From Pantoea vagans (GTDB taxonomy: Bacteria > Pseudomonadota > Gammaproteobacteria > Enterobacterales > Enterobacteriaceae), in contig NZ_CP011427.1 in NCBI RefSeq assembly GCF_001506165.1, positions 2,108,001 to 2,172,000 of the forward strand: a stretch of 64,000 nt of DNA. Reading direction: 5' to 3'. The notes under the pieces are model-generated. The model worked only from the letters and a program-made list of their open reading frames with translations, did no database searches and had not been told where the DNA came from. Position 1 is the stretch's first letter. Each line of letters opens with the position of its first letter. A program made the translations under genes and the position numbers. Below are positions 29,078-36,042 of this stretch, one piece after another.

Positions 29078-29253
29078 TCCGCATTCTCAACATCCGATTG
29101 CAAGTCTGCATCACTGTCCTTTCCCGCCGGACTGAGTTTGCATGGCGGGCTCATCAAATCCTGCGATATTGTTGGCCGCGTCGATTGCTCGCTGCCGCAG
29201 GCTGACAGCAGCATCATCAAAACGGCACACAGTGCGATTCGGATCCTGAACAT
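29014..29253 (-). CDS. Rz1: Spanin outer-membrane subunit Rz1
   Basis: 79 residues in the +1 frame, starting inside Rz and running past its stop. Signal peptide with lipobox LLSAC (Cys about residue 19). Like lambda Rz1 it should be an outer-membrane lipoprotein that pairs with Rz to fuse the membranes at lysis. The C-terminal tail is longer than in lambda and less proline-rich. Confidence 0.85.
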   Translation of the reverse strand: MFRIRIALCAVLMMLLSACGSEQSTRPTISQDLMSPPCKLSPAGKDSDADLQSDVENADCVRTLRLNTYRWQAWYKAWQ

Positions 29254-29494
29254 ATTTCACCACGTCGCGTGTAATGGTTCGATAGATGACTTTTCCATCA
29301 GCGTTGGCGGCTGCCGCTCTCTGCTCAATGGGAACCAGCTTGGATTCGGCCTTCTGTTTCTTGATTGCATATTCAGCGTTAACTTTGGCGCTGTGGGCAT
29401 ACCAGCCATTAAGGTAACGAACCTGCCCGTAAACTAAAGCCGCGACAATCATCAATGCGATGGTAATCAGAACGGATCGCAGGCTAAATGTCAT
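29111..29494 (-). CDS. Rz: Spanin inner-membrane subunit Rz
   Basis: 127 residues from the ATG at 29494, overlapping the endolysin stop (ATGA). One N-terminal membrane segment ([18 protein letters not shown]) then a periplasmic helical coiled coil with [20 protein letters not shown]. Standard i-spanin architecture. Confidence 0.88.
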
Positions 29495-29982
29495 TTCTGC
29501 CCCCACAAGCAAACTTCGCGCTCAATCTCACGGCGATTCATTAACCCTTTCCACTTTTGTCCCCCCGCGTATACCCATCGGCGCAACTGGTCGCAGGCGC
29601 CAGCGGTGTCTCCCTGGTTGATGCGCTGAAGTAGAGTCGAGGTTTTGAAGTTGCCAGCGCCAACGTTATAGGCGAACGAGTAGATAGCAGCGCGGGTTTC
29701 ATCCGGTATTGGCTTTTTGATATAGGGGTCAATCTGAGCAGCTGTTGTGCGCAGATCCTTATCGAGTAGCGCGCGGCATTCCAGTTCTGTGTAGGTCTTA
29801 CCAAGCATGATGTCTATGCCAGTGTGCCCATAACAAACAGTCCAGATACCGGCCACGTCTTTATATGGGGTGTATTCAACGCCTTCAAGTGAAGGGATGA
29901 GCGTTGTAGCAATAGCAATCGCGCCAGCCCCGCCGCCTACGGCAGCAACTAGCTTTTTCCGTAGAGACGGGGATAGGGACAT
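29491..29982 (-). CDS. SAR endolysin (muramidase, GH24)
   Basis: 163 residues. The Glu-x8-Asp-x5-Thr triad is present at E33, D42, T48. Residues 11-30 form a weakly hydrophobic, Gly/Ala-rich signal-anchor-release segment, so the enzyme should be exported by Sec and activated when released, as in phage 21. Pairs with a pinholin upstream. Confidence 0.92.
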
Positions 29983-29984
29983 GT

Positions 29985-30230
29985 TTACTGATCCTGTGGT
30001 GGGTTTGGAACGTATCCACGACGCAGAGCGGCTTCATAAGCACGTGTCTGCCGATTTTTGTAATACAGATTCACCAGGAAGGTGGCGATACCGATTACCA
30101 CGCCGCTGATTACTGCAATCTGGTTCCAGTCGAGGTCATGAATCCATTGCGACACACTACCTCCGCAGACCAGCGTGCCAGAGACGCAATAGCTGGCACC
30201 TGATGCAAGTTTGTCAGGCATAATTTTCAT
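29985..30230 (-). CDS. Pinholin, phage 21 S-type, dual start
   Basis: 81 residues from the ATG at 30230, preceded by GGGGTTGG. The N-terminus [11 protein letters not shown] mirrors MKSMDKIS of S21, including the second start at Met4 that in S21 separates antiholin and holin. Two membrane segments (about 10-28 and 36-55) and a charged tail. The pairing with a SAR endolysin supports a pinholin mechanism. Confidence 0.85.
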
Positions 30231-30295
30231 ATCCAACCCCATTTAGGGGATCCGCTTTTAAGATTTTGCCGAGGGATGAAGAAAGCGAACCCGGT

Positions 30296-30362
30296 TATAA
30301 TTTCAACTGCTGAGGAAGAAACTTTCCAGAGTTCGACATAACCCGCCTTGCGCGGGTTTTCT
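30296..30362 (+). ncRNA. Possible short plus-strand RNA opposite the late operon
   Basis: TATAAT at 30296-30301 could start a transcript of about 50 nt that ends at the terminator ACCCGC/GCGGGT (30341-30357) with T4-CTTTT. No good -35 is visible. Confidence 0.35.
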
Positions 30363-30450
30363 TTTGCCAGTAGTCGAAAAAAAAGATGCCCGCCACCACT
30401 TGGGGATATTCCTTGAGGTCATAGGGATTGGCAGGGGCGAAAACGATAAA

Positions 30451-30468
30451 GGCTCGCCGAAGCGAGCC
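30451..30468 (-). terminator. Leftward terminator after the RNA array, before the holin
   Basis: GGCTCGC-TTCG-GCGAGCC on the minus strand, followed by TTTATCGTTTT. Late transcription into the lysis genes must read through it. Confidence 0.7.
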
Positions 30469-30488
30469 CTTATATACGTGAATTTGGA

Positions 30489-30598
30489 ATTGCTATGCCG
30501 GGTGCCTCCCGGTGATAAGTACCAGCCAATACTTACCGCTTGAGACCGATCTTGGGAGTAAAGCTGACGCCCCTCCGCATAGGGGGATTCATAGCAAT
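30489..30598 (-). ncRNA. Pseudoknot RNA copy 1 (C4/P4-CI-like)
   Basis: Closing helix ATTGCTATG/CATAGCAAT (9 bp). On the plus strand the inner parts are CCGGG-TGCCT-CCCGG (30498-30512), helix TAAGT/ACTTA (30516-30535) whose loop CAGC (30523-30526) can pair with GCTG (30563-30566), and hairpin CCCCT/AGGGG (30570-30585). The same elements recur in five other copies with compensating changes. Confidence 0.75.
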
Positions 30599-30620
30599 AT
30601 TATCATATTAGCAGGTTGCC

Positions 30621-30721
30621 GGAACGCCGGGTGCCTCCCGGTGAACGAAGTGCAGCCACCTCCGTCCGCAAACTTGCGCTGGTTCTTGGCTGATGCCCCG
30701 CCGCTTAGGGGGATTCGTTCC
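30621..30721 (-). ncRNA. Pseudoknot RNA copy 2 (C4/P4-CI-like)
   Basis: Closing helix GGAACG/CGTTCC. CCGGG-TGCCT-CCCGG at 30627-30641. Helix ACGAAG/CTCCGT with one A-C on the plus strand, which is a U-G wobble on the minus strand. Loop CAGCCA (30653-30658) pairs fully with TGGCTG (30687-30692), two bases before the CCCC/GGGG hairpin. Confidence 0.75.
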
Positions 30722-30736
30722 AACACTGAATATAAC

Positions 30737-30857
30737 ATACGGTGCCGGGTGCCTCCCGGTGAACAAAGCCAGTACACTCTGTCCGCGTTAGTCCCGTCTT
30801 GGAGAAAAATGCCGCCCCATTCACTGCCGCCCCGCCGCACAGGGGGATTCACCGTAT
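30737..30857 (-). ncRNA. Pseudoknot RNA copy 3 (C4/P4-CI-like)
   Basis: Closing helix ATACGGTG/CACCGTAT. CCGGG-TGCCT-CCCGG at 30745-30759. Helix ACAAAG/CTCTGT (U-G on the minus strand at one pair). Loop CAGT (30770-30773) pairs with ACTG (30823-30826). Longer than the others by an insertion in the variable region. Confidence 0.75.
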
Positions 30858-30887
30858 TATTATAATAACACACCAAAATTAATCTGC

Positions 30888-31002
30888 TGCGGTGCCGGGT
30901 GCCTCCCGGTGAGTAAGTACAGCCATGCTTACCCGCGATTAGGCTTGTTGTTACTCAGGAGAGTAATAGCTGCCGCCCCTTCGCATAGAGGGATTCACCG
31001 CA
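30888..31002 (-). ncRNA. Pseudoknot RNA copy 4 (C4/P4-CI-like)
   Basis: Closing helix TGCGGTG/CACCGCA. CCGGG-TGCCT-CCCGG at 30895-30909. Helix GTAAG/CTTAC (30913-30932) with loop CAGC (30920-30923) pairing with GCTG (30969-30972). The last hairpin has one C-A mismatch on the plus strand, which is G-U on the minus strand. Confidence 0.75.
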
Positions 31003-31145
31003 TTGGTCTAAATGTAGACCAGATACGCTTGATTATGAAGACTATTCATAATTTTAAGTTGGCATACGAAATCTCAATCAAACATAAAGCAACTGAACTT
31101 CAACTACGTGCCCCTGATCGATTAACTTATTATCTCATAAACAAA

Positions 31146-31169
31146 AGCCCCGTCGGTTAGGACGGGGCT
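31146..31169 (-). terminator. Leftward terminator inside the RNA array region
   Basis: AGCCCCGTC/GACGGGGCT is a perfect 9-bp helix; on the minus strand it is followed by TTTGTTT. The surrounding 31003-31407 has no supported gene; a second hairpin (AAGCACAG/CTGTGCTT) is at about 31275-31296. Confidence 0.6.
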
Positions 31170-31407
31170 CAGGGCCTGGTATGCGAGATGAATGATTGGA
31201 CGATAAAACAAATAACACCAGGCAACAGTTTATTTACTAAATCACTATTATCATGTCAAGTTTGACGTAGTAAAGCACAGCTTAACCTGTGCTTCTGAAA
31301 TTGGTGCGCCCGTTTATCGTCATTGATTAGGTAACAATCCATCGTTAGATGTGGCGCATTGAAATGATACACAATCAATACTAGCCGTAATCTTCGGCAT
31401 TTCAACA

Positions 31408-31647
31408 ATGTTAATTTTTAATTTTGACGTAGAACAAAGCTCAGCAGTTTACGTCTATCAATATCGTAGTAAAGCCGTGCAGGTACAAATCCGAAAGCGC
31501 CAATCGGATTTCAAGTCTGGAAGCATCATCGATGAAAAACGTCAGGAATTCGAAAAAACGCCAATGAAAGACCTGATTAAGAATGTGCTTAAGGTATTTA
31601 AACTGATTACGCGTATATTACTCGGCGGGTACTACCCAATCTCTTGA
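31408..31647 (+). CDS. Small plus-strand protein, possible moron
   Basis: 79 residues, basic, with a hydrophobic C-terminal helix (VFKLITRILLGGYYPIS). AT-rich codon use unlike the late genes. No strong ribosome binding site, but a plus-strand terminator follows within 20 bp, suggesting a real transcription unit. No family recognised. Confidence 0.4.
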   Translation: MLIFNFDVEQSSAVYVYQYRSKAVQVQIRKRQSDFKSGSIIDEKRQEFEKTPMKDLIKNVLKVFKLITRILLGGYYPIS

Positions 31648-31663
31648 AGAAACTTGAATTTTT

Positions 31664-31695
31664 ATCCCGGAACTTATCATTTCGGGATCTTTTTT
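31664..31695 (+). terminator. Terminator after the 31408-31647 gene
   Basis: ATCCCG (31664-31669) pairs with CGGGAT (31683-31688), then CT6. Confidence 0.7.
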
Positions 31696-31747
31696 CAAAA
31701 AGGCCCACCAAGGTGAGCCATGCTTTGCTGAAGCATTATGGCTTATC

Positions 31748-31857
31748 TGCGATGCCGCTCGTTAGACGGTGAGTAAGGTACAGTCCCCTTAGCCGCTTGC
31801 TCAGACAGCCCTCCAGAGCTTTGACTGTTGCCACGCCACTAGGCGTGATTCACCGCA
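31748..31857 (-). ncRNA. Pseudoknot RNA copy 5, divergent (C4/P4-CI-like)
   Basis: Primary sequence is largely changed but the fold is kept. Closing helix TGCGATG/CACCGCA (one A-C, U-G on the minus strand), CCG/CGG in place of CCGGG/CCCGG, and helix TAAGG/CCTTA. Loop ACAGTC (31780-31785) pairs fully with GACTGT (31823-31828), and hairpin CACGCC/GGCGTG replaces CCCCT/AGGGG. This copy is the strongest evidence that the structure is selected. Confidence 0.7.
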
Positions 31858-31968
31858 TTAACCCCAGCATATAGTTAAGCAATATTTAAGTGAAGTCATT
31901 TTATGTCAATATTTTGACTTGATACTAAATGCTCTTTGCATTTAAAGCCGCTAATGGAAACAGAAGGG

Positions 31969-32038
31969 CCGCCGTCAAGGATTTTAACCCCGTCCTCTGG
32001 CACTAGTGCCAGCGCTCTGTCCAATAAGCTAACGGCGG
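31969..32038 (-). tRNA. tRNA-like gene with 6-nt anticodon loop
   Basis: On the minus strand the 70 nt fold as a complete cloverleaf. The acceptor is CCGCCGT/ACGGCGG (7 bp). The D-arm is GCTT-ATTGGACA-GAGC, with U8, A14 and GG in place. The anticodon stem is CTGGC/GCCAG with a loop of only six bases (ACTAGT). The T-arm is CGGGG-TTAAAAT-CCTTG with two G-U pairs and A in place of C56. No CCA is encoded. It lies between Q and the lysis genes, where some lambdoid phages carry tRNA genes. With a 6-nt loop it is probably a degenerate tRNA or a decoy, so amino acid identity is not assigned. Confidence 0.6.
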
Positions 32039-32106
32039 ATTAATTGACATACAGGAATAGAATCAGCTGATGATTTTAACCTACACGCCACAAAGAGATT
32101 ATAGTC

Positions 32107-32213
32107 GCTACAGCGCCGGGTGCCTCCCGGTGGGCTCGTAAACAATCAACGATACCCGCATGTTAACGCACTTCGATTGTTATGCCCCTCCGCAAAGGGG
32201 GATACGTTGTAGC
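32107..32213 (-). ncRNA. Pseudoknot RNA copy 6 (C4/P4-CI-like)
   Basis: Closing helix GCTACAGCG/CGTTGTAGC. CCGGG-TGCCT-CCCGG at 32116-32130. Helix TCGT/ACGA. Loop AACAATC (32141-32147) pairs with GATTGTT (32175-32181), the longest pseudoknot of the set (7 bp). Hairpin CCCCT/AGGGG at 32185-32200. First copy downstream of Q in the direction of late transcription. Confidence 0.75.
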
Positions 32214-32259
32214 AAAAAAGAATTTAGCATTTGATTAAAACTATATGATTTTAGTAAAT

Positions 32260-32292
32260 AAAAAAAACGCCTACGGCAGCTAACCTTGGCGC
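32260..32292 (-). terminator. Probable tR'-type terminator downstream of Q
   Basis: On the minus strand GCGCC pairs with GGCGT around a 16-nt loop, followed by T7ATTT. It lies 140 bp after Q, where lambda has pR'-tR'. I could not identify pR' with confidence in 32293-32427. Confidence 0.45.
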
Positions 32293-32427
32293 TTCTAATC
32301 ATTCACAGATAATGGAACTGCTCAGTCCGCTTTGCTTCCCGAGCGTAAACTGAATATGCCAGGTCGCCCGCCCTTTGTCTTTAGCTATTGGTGCTATAAA
32401 TTCTCTTCCATCATTATTTTAGGGGAT

Positions 32428-33030
32428 TTAATTCTCCATTTCACGCTTAATTGCGTAAAACATTTCCCCTTCAAGGATGTCCAGTGCCCATTCCATTCTG
32501 TTTCGGGCTTCCTTGAGGCTTATGCCCGTGAAATAGATCAGAGATGCACTTATGTTTTGCACGCTCTTGCGTTTGCAATAACGTAATCTGGCTACGTTTT
32601 TAATCGGGTTGTCCTTACCGAATGTTTTCACCATAACCGATTCAACAAAGGCAGCATCATCTGATTCTTTGGCGAGAGCAATGATGTTTGCTGTTGAGGT
32701 TTGCGGCATCAGCAGGTCACGGGCTTTGCGGAATAACTCTTTTCCGCGCAAACCTTCACAGTGAAGCTCTGATACGATTTTCTCAATCTGCCTGCCCTTC
32801 TGTTCGCTCCATTCGCAACGCATCATAAGGCGGCCGATAACGTTCACTTCTCCCCGATCGTAATCTTCATTGCCGAGGTGCTGCCCCCATACGGTGAGCA
32901 TGTTACGCACCCACGCCTGTTGAGATGAGTTGATAGTCTTCCACCCGTTACCAAACAGGCGGCGCATGTCCGCAGCGCTGCGTACACCGGCAAGCCTGAC
33001 GAGTTGCTGGAAGTCTCGTTCAATGCGCAT
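32428..33030 (-). CDS. Q: Putative late antiterminator Q
   Basis: 200 residues, basic, starting inside the end of ylcG. It occupies the Q position (after NinG and YlcG, before the late region) and resembles phage proteins of the DUF1133/antiterminator group (GEVNVIGRLMMRCEWSEQKGRQIEKI). It has no zinc finger like lambda Q. Assignment rests mainly on position. It should allow RNA polymerase to pass the leftward terminators at 32260, 31146, 30451, 27503 and 16167. Confidence 0.65.
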   Translation of the reverse strand: MRIERDFQQLVRLAGVRSAADMRRLFGNGWKTINSSQQAWVRNMLTVWGQHLGNEDYDRGEVNVIGRLMMRCEWSEQKGRQIEKIVSELHCEGLRGKELFRKARDLLMPQTSTANIIALAKESDDAAFVESVMVKTFGKDNPIKNVARLRYCKRKSVQNISASLIYFTGISLKEARNRMEWALDILEGEMFYAIKREMEN

Positions 33031-35283: not shown

Positions 35284-36042
35284 CTATACAGCCAGCTGAA
35301 GTTGCATGTTGAATTTATCCCGATGCTCACAATAGATGAGCGAGCCGGGACTATTATGCGACTCAATGCGCTCAACCATTAGGGCGGCGCGAGTCTCTTT
35401 TGAGGCCGGCGCGTATGCACCAGACCACGCCTTGTCGATTCCTATATTTCTGGCAACGTTCGTGCTATCGGCGCTGGCAAGCGGAAGTTTGGTGAAGATG
35501 AGCGGGTTCAGCATACGCAGGCCGTGAAGCTTGGTGATGGGTTGCCCGTAATCATCGGTGACATGGCGAATCAGGTCTTTCATGCGCGCCACTGCGATGT
35601 TTGGCCGCTTAACGTCATACTCGCCACAACTGCCTATCGCCACCCGCGGATACGTGTTGCACAGTCGAATAAATCGCTCGTCACTTTCGTTCATGTGCCA
35701 TACCGGTACACCATAGAAAACACCGTGCGGCCATTCCTCGAGTAATGCCTCGTTCTCAGCTTCACCACCATCGATGACGTCAGGGATTATCGCGAAGTCG
35801 AAGCCAGGATTATTTTTCCAGCGCGCTACAAACTCGTAATAATCGCTCCACTCGATTTTATTCCGGCCAGCTGCTTTCCAAGCAGTAAACGCGCCGTTAT
35901 CGAGGGCGAATGACTGGCAGTATTCAGAGGCGAGGTTAATCTGGCTTGCGTGGGCAAAGGATATGAATGCGTGCCGGGCTTTCCACGCTTTGATGGCGCA
36001 GGTGTCAGGCGTTATTGGTCCGCCGTGATAATGGATCATCAT
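35284..36042 (-). CDS. TGT/DpdA-like enzyme, possible 7-deazaguanine DNA modification
   Basis: 252 residues. Motifs fit the tRNA-guanine transglycosylase superfamily. ALDNGAF (Asp48) stands for the SDSGGF substrate-binding Asp of TGT, and FAIIPDVIDGG (Asp88) for the next strand. VAIGSCG and HGLRMLNP follow. ADSTNVARN (Asp192) matches the D-x5-RN nucleophile region. The TGT zinc-binding cysteines are absent, and the protein is much shorter than TGT, as in phage DpdA proteins that insert 7-deazaguanines into DNA. No preQ0 synthesis genes are in the window, so host precursor would be needed. Lies next to P in the early operon. Confidence 0.55.
   Translation of the reverse strand: MMIHYHGGPITPDTCAIKAWKARHAFISFAHASQINLASEYCQSFALDNGAFTAWKAAGRNKIEWSDYYEFVARWKNNPGFDFAIIPDVIDGGEAENEALLEEWPHGVFYGVPVWHMNESDERFIRLCNTYPRVAIGSCGEYDVKRPNIAVARMKDLIRHVTDDYGQPITKLHGLRMLNPLIFTKLPLASADSTNVARNIGIDKAWSGAYAPASKETRAALMVERIESHNSPGSLIYCEHRDKFNMQLQLAV

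Follow-up and report, generated by a model that had tools for sequence, protein, structure and literature searches.

The stretch of DNA analyzed here (the window) comprises 64,000 nucleotides from Pantoea vagans and includes a prophage in which six related RNA elements are present at positions 30489-32213. The initial annotation had described a six-copy RNA array between the antitermination gene Q and the lysis genes, and this layout was borne out by six elements of 107-123 nt, all of which lie on the late (minus) strand. On one side of the array is a gene for a Q-like antitermination protein (32428..33030, minus) that matches phrog_753 (E 6e-49) and has no Pfam or NCBIfam match. On the other side, also on the minus strand, are genes for a holin (29985..30242, PF04971), an endolysin (29491..29982, PF00959) and an Rz-like spanin (29111..29512, phrog_2536). 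Additionally, a minus-strand tRNA-like element with a visible cloverleaf and an abnormal anticodon arm (31966..32038; tRNA-??? by ARAGORN, 41.7 bits with RF00005) occurs between copies 6 and 5, and the one ORF scanned inside the array (31408-31647, plus, 79 aa) matches nothing in Pfam, PHROG or NCBIfam.

The six elements are paralogous copies of the phage sRNA family STnc100 (RF02076). Matches to RF02076 in the array region reach an E value of 1.8e-16, and the Rfam gathering cut-off of 47 bits is passed by five of the six copies (c1, c2, c3, c4 and c6), with c5 below it. Model R1, a covariance model trained on 23 relatives that include c1 and c3 of the array, recovers all four held-out copies (c2, c4, c5 and c6). 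The shared fold consists, in order, of a closing helix P1, the joint AAUC, a hairpin P2, a strand that forms a pseudoknot with the P3 loop, a variable linker that ends in GC, the hairpin P3 itself, and a near-invariant hairpin P4 (altered in c5) with the 3' strand of P1 immediately next to it. All five closing helices and all six pseudoknot pairings listed in the initial annotation can be read in the sequence.

Individual copies vary in their helices. Copy 1 (30489..30598; RF02076 78.3 bits, R1 90.9 bits as a member of the training set) has the P1 helix ATTGCTATG/CATAGCAAT and the pseudoknot CAGC/GCTG, while copy 2 (30618..30724; 62.1 and, held out, 76.8 bits) has GGAACG/CGTTCC and CAGCCA/TGGCTG. 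Copy 3 (30736..30858; 77.7 and 91 bits, also in the training set) closes with ATACGGTG/CACCGTAT and pairs CAGT/ACTG in the pseudoknot, and copy 4 (30886..31004; 63.1 and, held out, 80.8 bits) closes with TGCGGTG/CACCGCA and has CAGC/GCTG with a G-U extension. These four form a tight block in the order c4-c3-c2-c1 with spacers of 27, 11 and 19 nt and a terminator-like hairpin after c1 only. Copy 6 (32107..32213; 53.3 and, held out, 64.0 bits) has the P1 helix GCTACAACG/CGCTGTAGC with one A-C mismatch, and the pseudoknot AACAATC/GATTGTT. Copy 5 (31746..31859; RF02076 33.5 bits) is divergent, with a shortened P4, the pseudoknot ACAGTC/GACTGT and a P2 of CACGC/GCGTG that replaces CCCCT/AGGGG. It had been described as keeping the fold with almost no sequence in common; the fold is retained (R1 36.7 bits, held out), but the wording was overstated as the first 13 nt of c5 and c4 are identical.

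The case for structure rests on covariation. Among 23 aligned relatives, two-sided changes occur at every pair of the closing helix, the pseudoknot and P3; 92.1% of cells pair across the structure as a whole (76.0, sd 1.0, when shuffled and 40-45% when slid), and the covariation score is 0.496 as compared with 0.176 for shuffled and 0.08-0.09 for slid alignments. In a wider set the pseudoknot has at least four Watson-Crick pairs in 53 of 59 non-redundant relatives, formed by 49 different strands, a count reached in none of 2000 permutations; the remaining six relatives have fewer than four. This set originally comprised 60 elements, of which one (L265, Acidobacteria) was removed as a chance match, and a MAFFT alignment of 43 sequences (A1) was excluded from all counts as P3 was misaligned in it. 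Judged by these comparisons, the pseudoknot is real and family-wide, and the earlier proposal of a covarying pseudoknotted fold is sustained. R1 was run on all 120 viral loci and on 90 of 119 genome loci; 29 of these 90 come from outside of Enterobacterales and gave one weak match of 22.3 bits. Folding energy was discarded as proof of a structured RNA, as it is unremarkable on the minus strand (z -0.8 to -2.0) and two plus strands score lower (-3.6 and -3.0). Coding repeats are also disfavored, as the element lengths differ by non-multiples of three.

The orientation of the Rfam match, together with the excess of G-U over A-C pairs in P3, indicates that the RNA strand is the minus strand, as had been proposed. 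These P3 pairs number 36 to 0 when both are penalized alike and 71 to 46 when both are allowed alike; these figures replace a count of 78 to 0, in which the choice of P3 with G-U allowed had introduced a bias. The corresponding P1 count of 16 to 8 has the same kind of bias. On the minus strand, P1 of copy 6 contains an A-C.

The elements had also been thought to be made with the late transcript. They do lie on the late strand, but doubt that this is the sole route arises from promoter-like sites just upstream of elements. Across the family, a sigma-70-like site at -16..-7 reaches the score threshold of 8.5 in 28 of 57 upstream regions (two of the 59 elements, without 160 nt upstream, were excluded); at each of ten other positions, 2-8 of the 57 regions do so. 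Shuffling of whole regions gives 7.1 (sd 2.4, maximum 14, 200 rounds) and shuffling that keeps local composition gives 9.5 (sd 2.6, maximum 18, 300 rounds). The motif TGnTAnnnT is found upstream in 11 of 57 (control 0-1). A terminator-like hairpin occurs within 120 nt after the element in 26 of 59 cases, versus 4 of 59 when a control stretch on the upstream side was examined. Statistically, family members are thus shown to tend to carry a sigma-70-like promoter that would be placed for RNA start at P1, and many to carry a putative terminator shortly after P1. This combination of an own promoter with, often, a terminator-like hairpin makes many of the elements look like separate genes, beyond the late transcript. 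RpoD binding at STnc100 has been reported for Salmonella LT2 (PMC10794520).

Within the array, extended -10-like sites precede c2 (TGTTATATT, 30729..30737, score 9.5), c3 (TGTTATTAT, 30862..30870, score 8.5) and c6 (TGCTAAATT, 32221..32229, score 8.5), all on the minus strand, as is the promoter-like TTGACA-17-AATATT upstream of c5 (31881..31909; 10 of 12 consensus matches). The site before c1 (TGCTAATAT, 30605..30613, minus) scores 7.5, which is under the threshold. A promoter scan of the array region returned 7 promoter-like sites versus 4.3 expected, and a terminator scan of both strands returned 5 terminator-like sites versus 3.3 expected by chance. Terminator-like hairpins follow c1 and c5 but none of the other four copies. 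That of c1 (30450..30471, minus, fold z -4.3) comprises GGGCTCGCTTCGGCGAGCC and a U-poor tail, and is missing from the terminator scan output; that of c5 (31702..31719, minus, fold z -2.0) is followed by TTTTTGAAAA and was returned by the scan, as was a minus-strand hairpin upstream of c4 (31145..31170). The hairpin of c1 is also present after the last copy of a second array in the same genome. A further minus-strand hairpin with T8 lies between Q and c6 (32260..32296, fold z -2.4); it is missing from the scan output and, by analogy, would occupy the place of lambda tR'.

The six-copy layout, which the initial annotation regarded as unfamiliar, is the largest that we have seen, but smaller arrays exist in other prophages, for example three copies in Fels-1. 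Tandem arrays occur at 8 of 49 loci (198 genomes). A four-copy array has non-phage genes as neighbors, with no Pfam-recognized phage gene in the 10 neighboring ORFs scanned out of 17 of at least 90 aa. Given this array and the upstream promoter-like sites, these RNAs probably do not depend on late read-through alone. The whole array gave no blastn match to named phages at 1e-5, although single copies do match them.

We consider it somewhat better than an even chance that the members of this paralogous STnc100 array with its conserved fold are separate sRNA genes, the most likely role of the elements being, by analogy with relatives, that of Hfq-assisted trans-acting sRNAs. Each copy would be made in the lysogen from its own promoter, here often of the extended -10 type, and after induction Q-dependent read-through would provide a second source. 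The RNAs of the c4-c3-c2-c1 block may be individually started or cut apart in the AU-rich spacers. The least certain step is that Hfq would help these RNAs to act in trans on RNAs of the host or the phage, as it does for characterized relatives. The P2, P4 and pseudoknot core would then constitute a stabilizing scaffold, with the variable linker and flanks differing between copies, so that the array may supply a wider set or dose of regulators. Points against this explanation include the restriction of terminator-like hairpins to c1 and c5, the poor U-tract after c1, the subthreshold site before c1, the failure of R1 to match the place of the relative pasD, and the high ribosome-footprint coverage reported for some STnc100 copies of EDL933 (PMC5331693). 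The trans-acting reading is further weakened by the fact that the most conserved parts are folded, unlike the usual single-stranded seed.

A possible, though rather improbable, alternative is that the folded core binds a host protein such as an RNA chaperone, a ribonuclease, the ribosome or a defense protein, with the array raising the dose and target pairing being secondary. The best-conserved letters are those of P2, the AAUC joint, the GC that precedes P3, and P4: close relatives differ by 0.2% in the P2 stem, 0% in AAUC and 1.5% before P3, versus 10-14% in the linker and P1, figures that are biased for P2 and P4 because elements were picked partly by these hairpins. The invariance of P4 is not evidence, since pattern-fetched loci share P4 by construction. 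In P1, P3 and the pseudoknot it is mainly the pairing, rather than the letters, that is preserved. Multi-copy arrays suit titration, and the EDL933 footprint coverage could reflect nuclease resistance or binding (PMC5331693). However, the partner protein is putative and the Hfq association of relatives fits trans-acting sRNAs equally well. A CsrA sponge in particular was rejected, as the GGA in the P2 loop is inconstant (GGA, GGC and GGT all occur).

A broader and quite speculative extension is that STnc100, PasD and a sister clade form one superfamily of pseudoknotted phage RNAs near the starts of early-left and late operons, whose conserved core would bind a host factor, such as an RNA chaperone or RNA polymerase, and would not be a pairing seed, with late arrays as dose amplifiers. 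Members of the sister clade (clade 2) score under the Rfam cut-off; at 9 of 15 places examined they follow a phage repressor gene that has the same orientation. In the clade 2 alignment the further pair types, one of five measures, were not above shuffles (195 of 500 were as high).

It is unlikely that the elements are cis-acting RNAs of phage operons, involved in put-like antitermination or in processing of late or early messages. This reading draws on eight named phages, in seven of which the late strand carries the element before the lysis genes (in six of the seven, a gene with an antitermination protein annotation precedes it), and on the repressor-side position of the sister clade, a neighborhood like that in which HK022 putL acts downstream of PL (PMC9378689). 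However, in one named phage cor and a tail-fibre gene flank the element, one array has no recognized phage genes nearby, and the elements tend toward their own promoter and terminator. HK022 put is likewise a phage RNA near early operon starts, but it consists of two stem-loops of ~70 nt (PMC9378689), unlike the STnc100-type element in fold and length. Kinship with put was rejected, as NC_002166 27000-40751, in which the put sites were not pinpointed, has no match to R1 (E up to 10) or R2 (E up to 1); four TAAGTG places in this stretch are unlike the sequence upstream of clade 2.

Less probable still is that the copies are passive hitch-hikers, decaying functionless duplicates in a slot downstream of Q that tolerates inserts. 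This slot does take "morons" (PMC4104026), c5 is divergent, and an abnormal tRNA-like element lies between copies, but across the family P1, P3 and the pseudoknot show two-sided changes and the promoter-like sites keep one spacing, which indicates selection in the family. Furthermore, c1 and c2 differ little from the corresponding copies of this genome's second array, and the helix changes all preserve pairing. Finally, the kinship with C4 / P4-CI immunity RNA proposed in the initial annotation can be dismissed: C4 antisense RNA is also a small folded phage RNA, and C4 and isrK occur in two fetched prophage contigs (L070 and L263), yet cmscan of 30240-32440 on both strands gave no match to C4 (RF01695) or c4-a1b1 (RF03163) at E up to 1 while STnc100 matches instead, and the same Rfam library detects C4 in L070 and L263.

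The diverse pseudoknot strands, the promoter at P1 and the sister clade offer testable handles in the form of probes, compensatory mutants and RNA ends. In addition, a correct fold bears on the reading of sequence variants because the family partially overlaps EcOnc27 (sRNA103), an Hfq-binding RNA located next to stx2 in prophages carried by disease strains (PMC12711010).

Among known systems, type III toxin-antitoxin loci (ToxI-like) have pseudoknot repeats adjoining a ToxN-type endoribonuclease gene. The isrI and AsxR-type sRNAs are, like the array elements, Hfq-related sRNAs of lambdoid prophages, and AsxR and EcOnc01 genes occupy the same PR' moron slot (PMC4104026). They are other families; besides STnc100, no Rfam family exceeds its cut-off in the window, and isrI occurs among STnc100 copies in three other loci (L167, L204 and L267). 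PasD has Hfq-dependent stability and RIL-seq partners (PMC8550237; PMC13192938) and is said to share an ancestor with STnc100; its copies are described as widely separated and not in tandem (PMC13192938). In NC_049952, the position assigned to pasD gives a weak RF02076-like match (38.3 bits) and, by eye, shows a 7-bp pseudoknot (AATGATC/GATCATT), and is missed by R1 at E up to 0.01; the P4 of the PasD-like sequence differs from that of STnc100 elements. From its place before an esterase gene, we infer that L327:3307-3511 is PasD. STnc100 itself is among the most abundant bacterial sRNA annotations in one survey, the table of which gives no function (PMC9029176), and in EDL933 11 copies are tabulated with one confirmed by Northern blot (PMC5331693). 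The Rfam family and the array share sequence, nested fold, phage late location and strand. The array pseudoknot is absent from the nested STnc100 structure line of cmscan, a kind of line that cannot display pseudoknots, and promoter placement at P1 is without description in the excerpts of STnc100 literature considered. The RNA family is a catalogued but poorly understood one, to which the analysis adds features that point to a knotted fold, an on-switch of its own before many copies, and repeated copying. Where the array differs from STnc100 as known is in its six copies within one interval, a natural case of sRNA gene amplification within one prophage.

The six elements of the array, c1 (30489-30598), c2 (30618-30724), c3 (30736-30858), c4 (30886-31004), c5 (31746-31859) and c6 (32107-32213), all lie on the minus strand of 30489-32213, within a window taken from a genome of 4.31 Mb on one contig. 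In order of transcription, c6 is followed by a tRNA-like element, c5, a terminator-like hairpin, a gap, a second such hairpin, c4, c3, c2, c1 and a final terminator-like hairpin. The array is preceded by a Q-like antitermination gene (phrog_753), with NinG and NinB further upstream, and is followed 3' by holin, endolysin, Rz and small terminase subunit genes, all on the minus strand. The interval is the Q-to-lysis segment of a lambdoid prophage, and the six-element array that the initial annotation placed there is borne out. The tRNA-like element (31966-32038, minus strand) has recognisable acceptor, D- and T-type arms, with a predicted anticodon stem of 6 bp, a loop of 4 nt and a 2-nt anticodon according to ARAGORN; a tRNA-Arg(TCT) occupies the same interval of the second prophage of this genome (L322:12977-13052). 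Additionally, 31408-31688, within the array, contains on the plus strand an ORF of 79 aa followed by a terminator-like hairpin of the same strand; the ORF has no match in Pfam, PHROG or NCBIfam. A phage-encoded queuine tRNA-ribosyltransferase-like protein (phrog_887) is found at 35284-36042 (minus strand), and by eye L322:10287-11042 of the second prophage and locus L252 show related ORFs.

A cmscan of the window gave four matches over cut-off, every one to the phage sRNA family STnc100 (RF02076) on the minus strand (c1, c3, c4 and c6). Searching the whole genome with RF02076 added c2, at 62.1 bits, and three further copies that form a second array at 1077148-1077585, about 1.06 Mb from the first, while c5, at 33.5 bits, falls below the cut-off of 47. 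The proposed kinship with C4 immunity RNA did not hold, as cmscan of the array region returned no match to C4 or the C4 target family at E up to 1 and the same model library detected C4 in two other loci (L070 and L263).

Read on the RNA strand, the fold comprises a closing helix (P1), AAUC, hairpin P2, the pseudoknot strand, a variable linker ending in GC, hairpin P3 (whose loop contains the pseudoknot partner), a single A, hairpin P4 and P1'. From 277 records we obtained 150 distinct elements, 60 at below 80% identity, and 59 after one chance match was dropped. The pseudoknot was assessed as the longest Watson-Crick run between the 14 nt after P2 and the P3 loop, and its mean was 5.14 in native elements versus 3.35 (sd 0.13, maximum 3.85) with loops permuted among elements, none of 2000 permutations being as high. 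Control strands 12-20 nt further on gave mean runs of 2.8-3.0. At least four pseudoknot pairs form in 53 of the 59 elements, with 49 distinct pseudoknot strands. In an alignment of 23 sequences, at least one two-sided change occurs at every pair of P1 (8), the pseudoknot (6) and P3 (9), in one of four P2 pairs and in none of five P4 pairs, the invariance of P4 being built in because loci were fetched by its sequence; 77.8% of pseudoknot cells are paired in fixed columns. The pseudoknot and covariation initially described are thus upheld, and folding energies alone do not decide. Outside this alignment P2 is replaced in low-scoring relatives, c5 having CACGC/GCGTG, the third Fels-1 copy CCCG/CGGG and a sister clade GCG/CGC, as read by eye from the letters, with counts existing for the sister clade alone (12 sequences). 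The minus strand as source of the RNA is likewise supported, both by the RF02076 matches, all minus, and by the picked P3 stems, which hold 36 G-U and 0 A-C pairs when both were penalised alike during P3 picking, and 71 and 46 when both were allowed alike; favouring A-C alone gave 33 and 55. A former count of 78 to 0 was set aside, since that pick had favoured G-U.

The sister clade (clade 2) scores about 40-50 bits with the model built from the 23 relatives (R1), and shares P4 and P1 with STnc100 copies, with GCGGCUNNGCGCNCGC as P2 and long pseudoknots (for example GACTGACA/TGTCAGTC, AAGGTTG/CAACCTT and CAGTTAA/TTAACTG). We saw 18 distinct cores, one of them in 14 places. Among 12 sequences pairing is 96.6% versus 93.9% shuffled and 33-41% slid, and the covariation score is 0.140 versus 0.091; further pair types are no better than shuffles. 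No over-cut-off Rfam match covers these elements in 14 loci, and the copy in this genome reaches 29 bits for RF02076, under cut-off. A model from 12 sister-clade elements (R2) recovers all window copies but c5, five in total, helped by the P4 common to both types; the window itself gave no clade-2 match. Clade-2 elements, such as L322:4824-4960, L038:3514-3637 and L070:7164-7286, often lie 3' of phage repressor genes on the same strand: of 15 places inspected in 14 loci, 9 have an upstream same-strand ORF for a phage repressor or a regulator related to one. Both types occur together in the second prophage and in L054. In genomes G153 and G144 a further element is found on the opposite strand to the late array, at distances of about 12 and 28 kb. 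A second hairpin-bounded sequence, e.g. GAGAGCATTT...CTAAGTGCTCTC, directly precedes the clade-2 element in L307, L146, L054 and L252, and a similar one follows it in L049 and L093; this may be a further structured RNA.

Of 198 genomes of the bacterial family, 31 contain R1 matches, as do 14 of 394 genomes at order level (6 of 114 genera); among 369 genomes sampled from the class, R1 matched only this genome, apart from one marginal hit. RF02076 matched 38 of the 198, 26 of them over cut-off. Clustering the 65 R1 hits of family genomes within 2 kb on one contig, under stricter filters that may overlook weak copies, gave 49 loci, of which 41 are singles and eight are arrays with 6, 4, 3, 3, 2, 2, 2 and 2 copies. 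This genome accounts for two of these arrays and G183 for three. Additionally, G519 has five copies across 4 kb, Leclercia sp. 29361 (L167) four in 1.1 kb with a fifth 4 kb further, and Salmonella phage Fels-1 three (RF02076). A Q-like gene lies ahead of the array in all five loci with flanking ORFs tested (L318, L319, L322, L323 and L325), and a holin or endolysin is among the tested ORFs after it in four. With one E. coli-type copy as query, 115 of 50,697 phage records match at E up to 1, short pieces counted. In seven of eight phage regions inspected, lysis genes follow the element on its own strand, and in six of these an annotated antitermination protein gene precedes it, with none so annotated in Citrobacter phage Chris1; in the eighth, Erwinia phage vB_EhrS_49, it lies between cor and a downstream tail-fibre gene. 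Genes for tRNAs (Arg-TCT, Met, Asn, Lys) occur in 6 of 21 loci scanned, and isrI (RF01392) sRNA genes are interleaved with STnc100 copies in three of nine (L167, L204 and L267). The interval appears to serve as a general island for sRNAs and tRNAs.

One four-copy array of G183 (L320:9641-11125, minus strand) is surrounded by non-phage genes. Pfam recognises no phage gene in 10 scanned of its 17 ORFs of at least 90 aa, eight of the ten having matches such as transposase or MFS and formate transporters, and at a distance of 9 kb there is a STAXI RNA, likewise a marker of mobile elements. By eye its copies retain P1, P2, P4 and promoter-like upstream sequence, and equal-scoring copies occur in a Superficieibacter contig (L275). 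This array is possibly the remnant of a lost prophage with its RNAs retained.

Individual elements look like genes. Among 57 elements with 160 nt upstream, partly non-independent as some come from related arrays, 28 have a sigma-70-like promoter (score threshold 8.5) whose -10 hexamer begins between 16 and 7 nt ahead of P1; ten other windows of 10 nt yielded 2 to 8 each. Shuffling the whole stretch gave 7.1 (sd 2.4, maximum 14, 200 rounds), and shuffles keeping local composition 9.5 (sd 2.6, maximum 18, 300 rounds). TGnTAnnnT occupies this position in 11 of 57 and elsewhere in 0-1; the RNA would start at the first P1 pairs. The threshold is reached upstream of c2 to c6, with c1 below it (7.5), and the extended -10 TG is present at c1, c2, c3 and c6. 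Extended -10 promoters need little -35 sequence, which would allow copies to stand 11-27 nt apart. A terminator-like hairpin lies within 120 nt downstream of 26 of 59 elements; a control stretch taken upstream has one in 4 of 59.

The published accounts of the STnc100 family within our coverage, most subscription papers lying outside it, describe neither a pseudoknot nor a promoter placed at P1 nor tandem arrays of STnc100, and by title none of the papers retrieved on prophage sRNA, pseudoknot, tandem and antiterminator Q concerns this family; multiple STnc100 copies per genome have already been described. A role as scaffold, rather than as trans-acting sRNA genes, would agree with conservation being concentrated in the folded parts. 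We favour trans-acting sRNA genes by analogy, because of the Hfq and RIL-seq properties of relatives and an STnc100-type match with a pseudoknot at the pasD place. The pasD place of NC_049952 matches RF02076 at 38.3 bits and by eye carries the same pseudoknot in new letters; R1 does not recover it at E up to 0.01. A common ancestor has been stated for PasD and STnc100 in a study that took structures from RNAfold and RNAalifold and whose main text lacks the word 'pseudoknot' (PMC13192938). PasD is Hfq-dependent with RIL-seq partners (PMC8550237), and EcOnc27, which partially overlaps STnc100, binds Hfq (PMC12711010).
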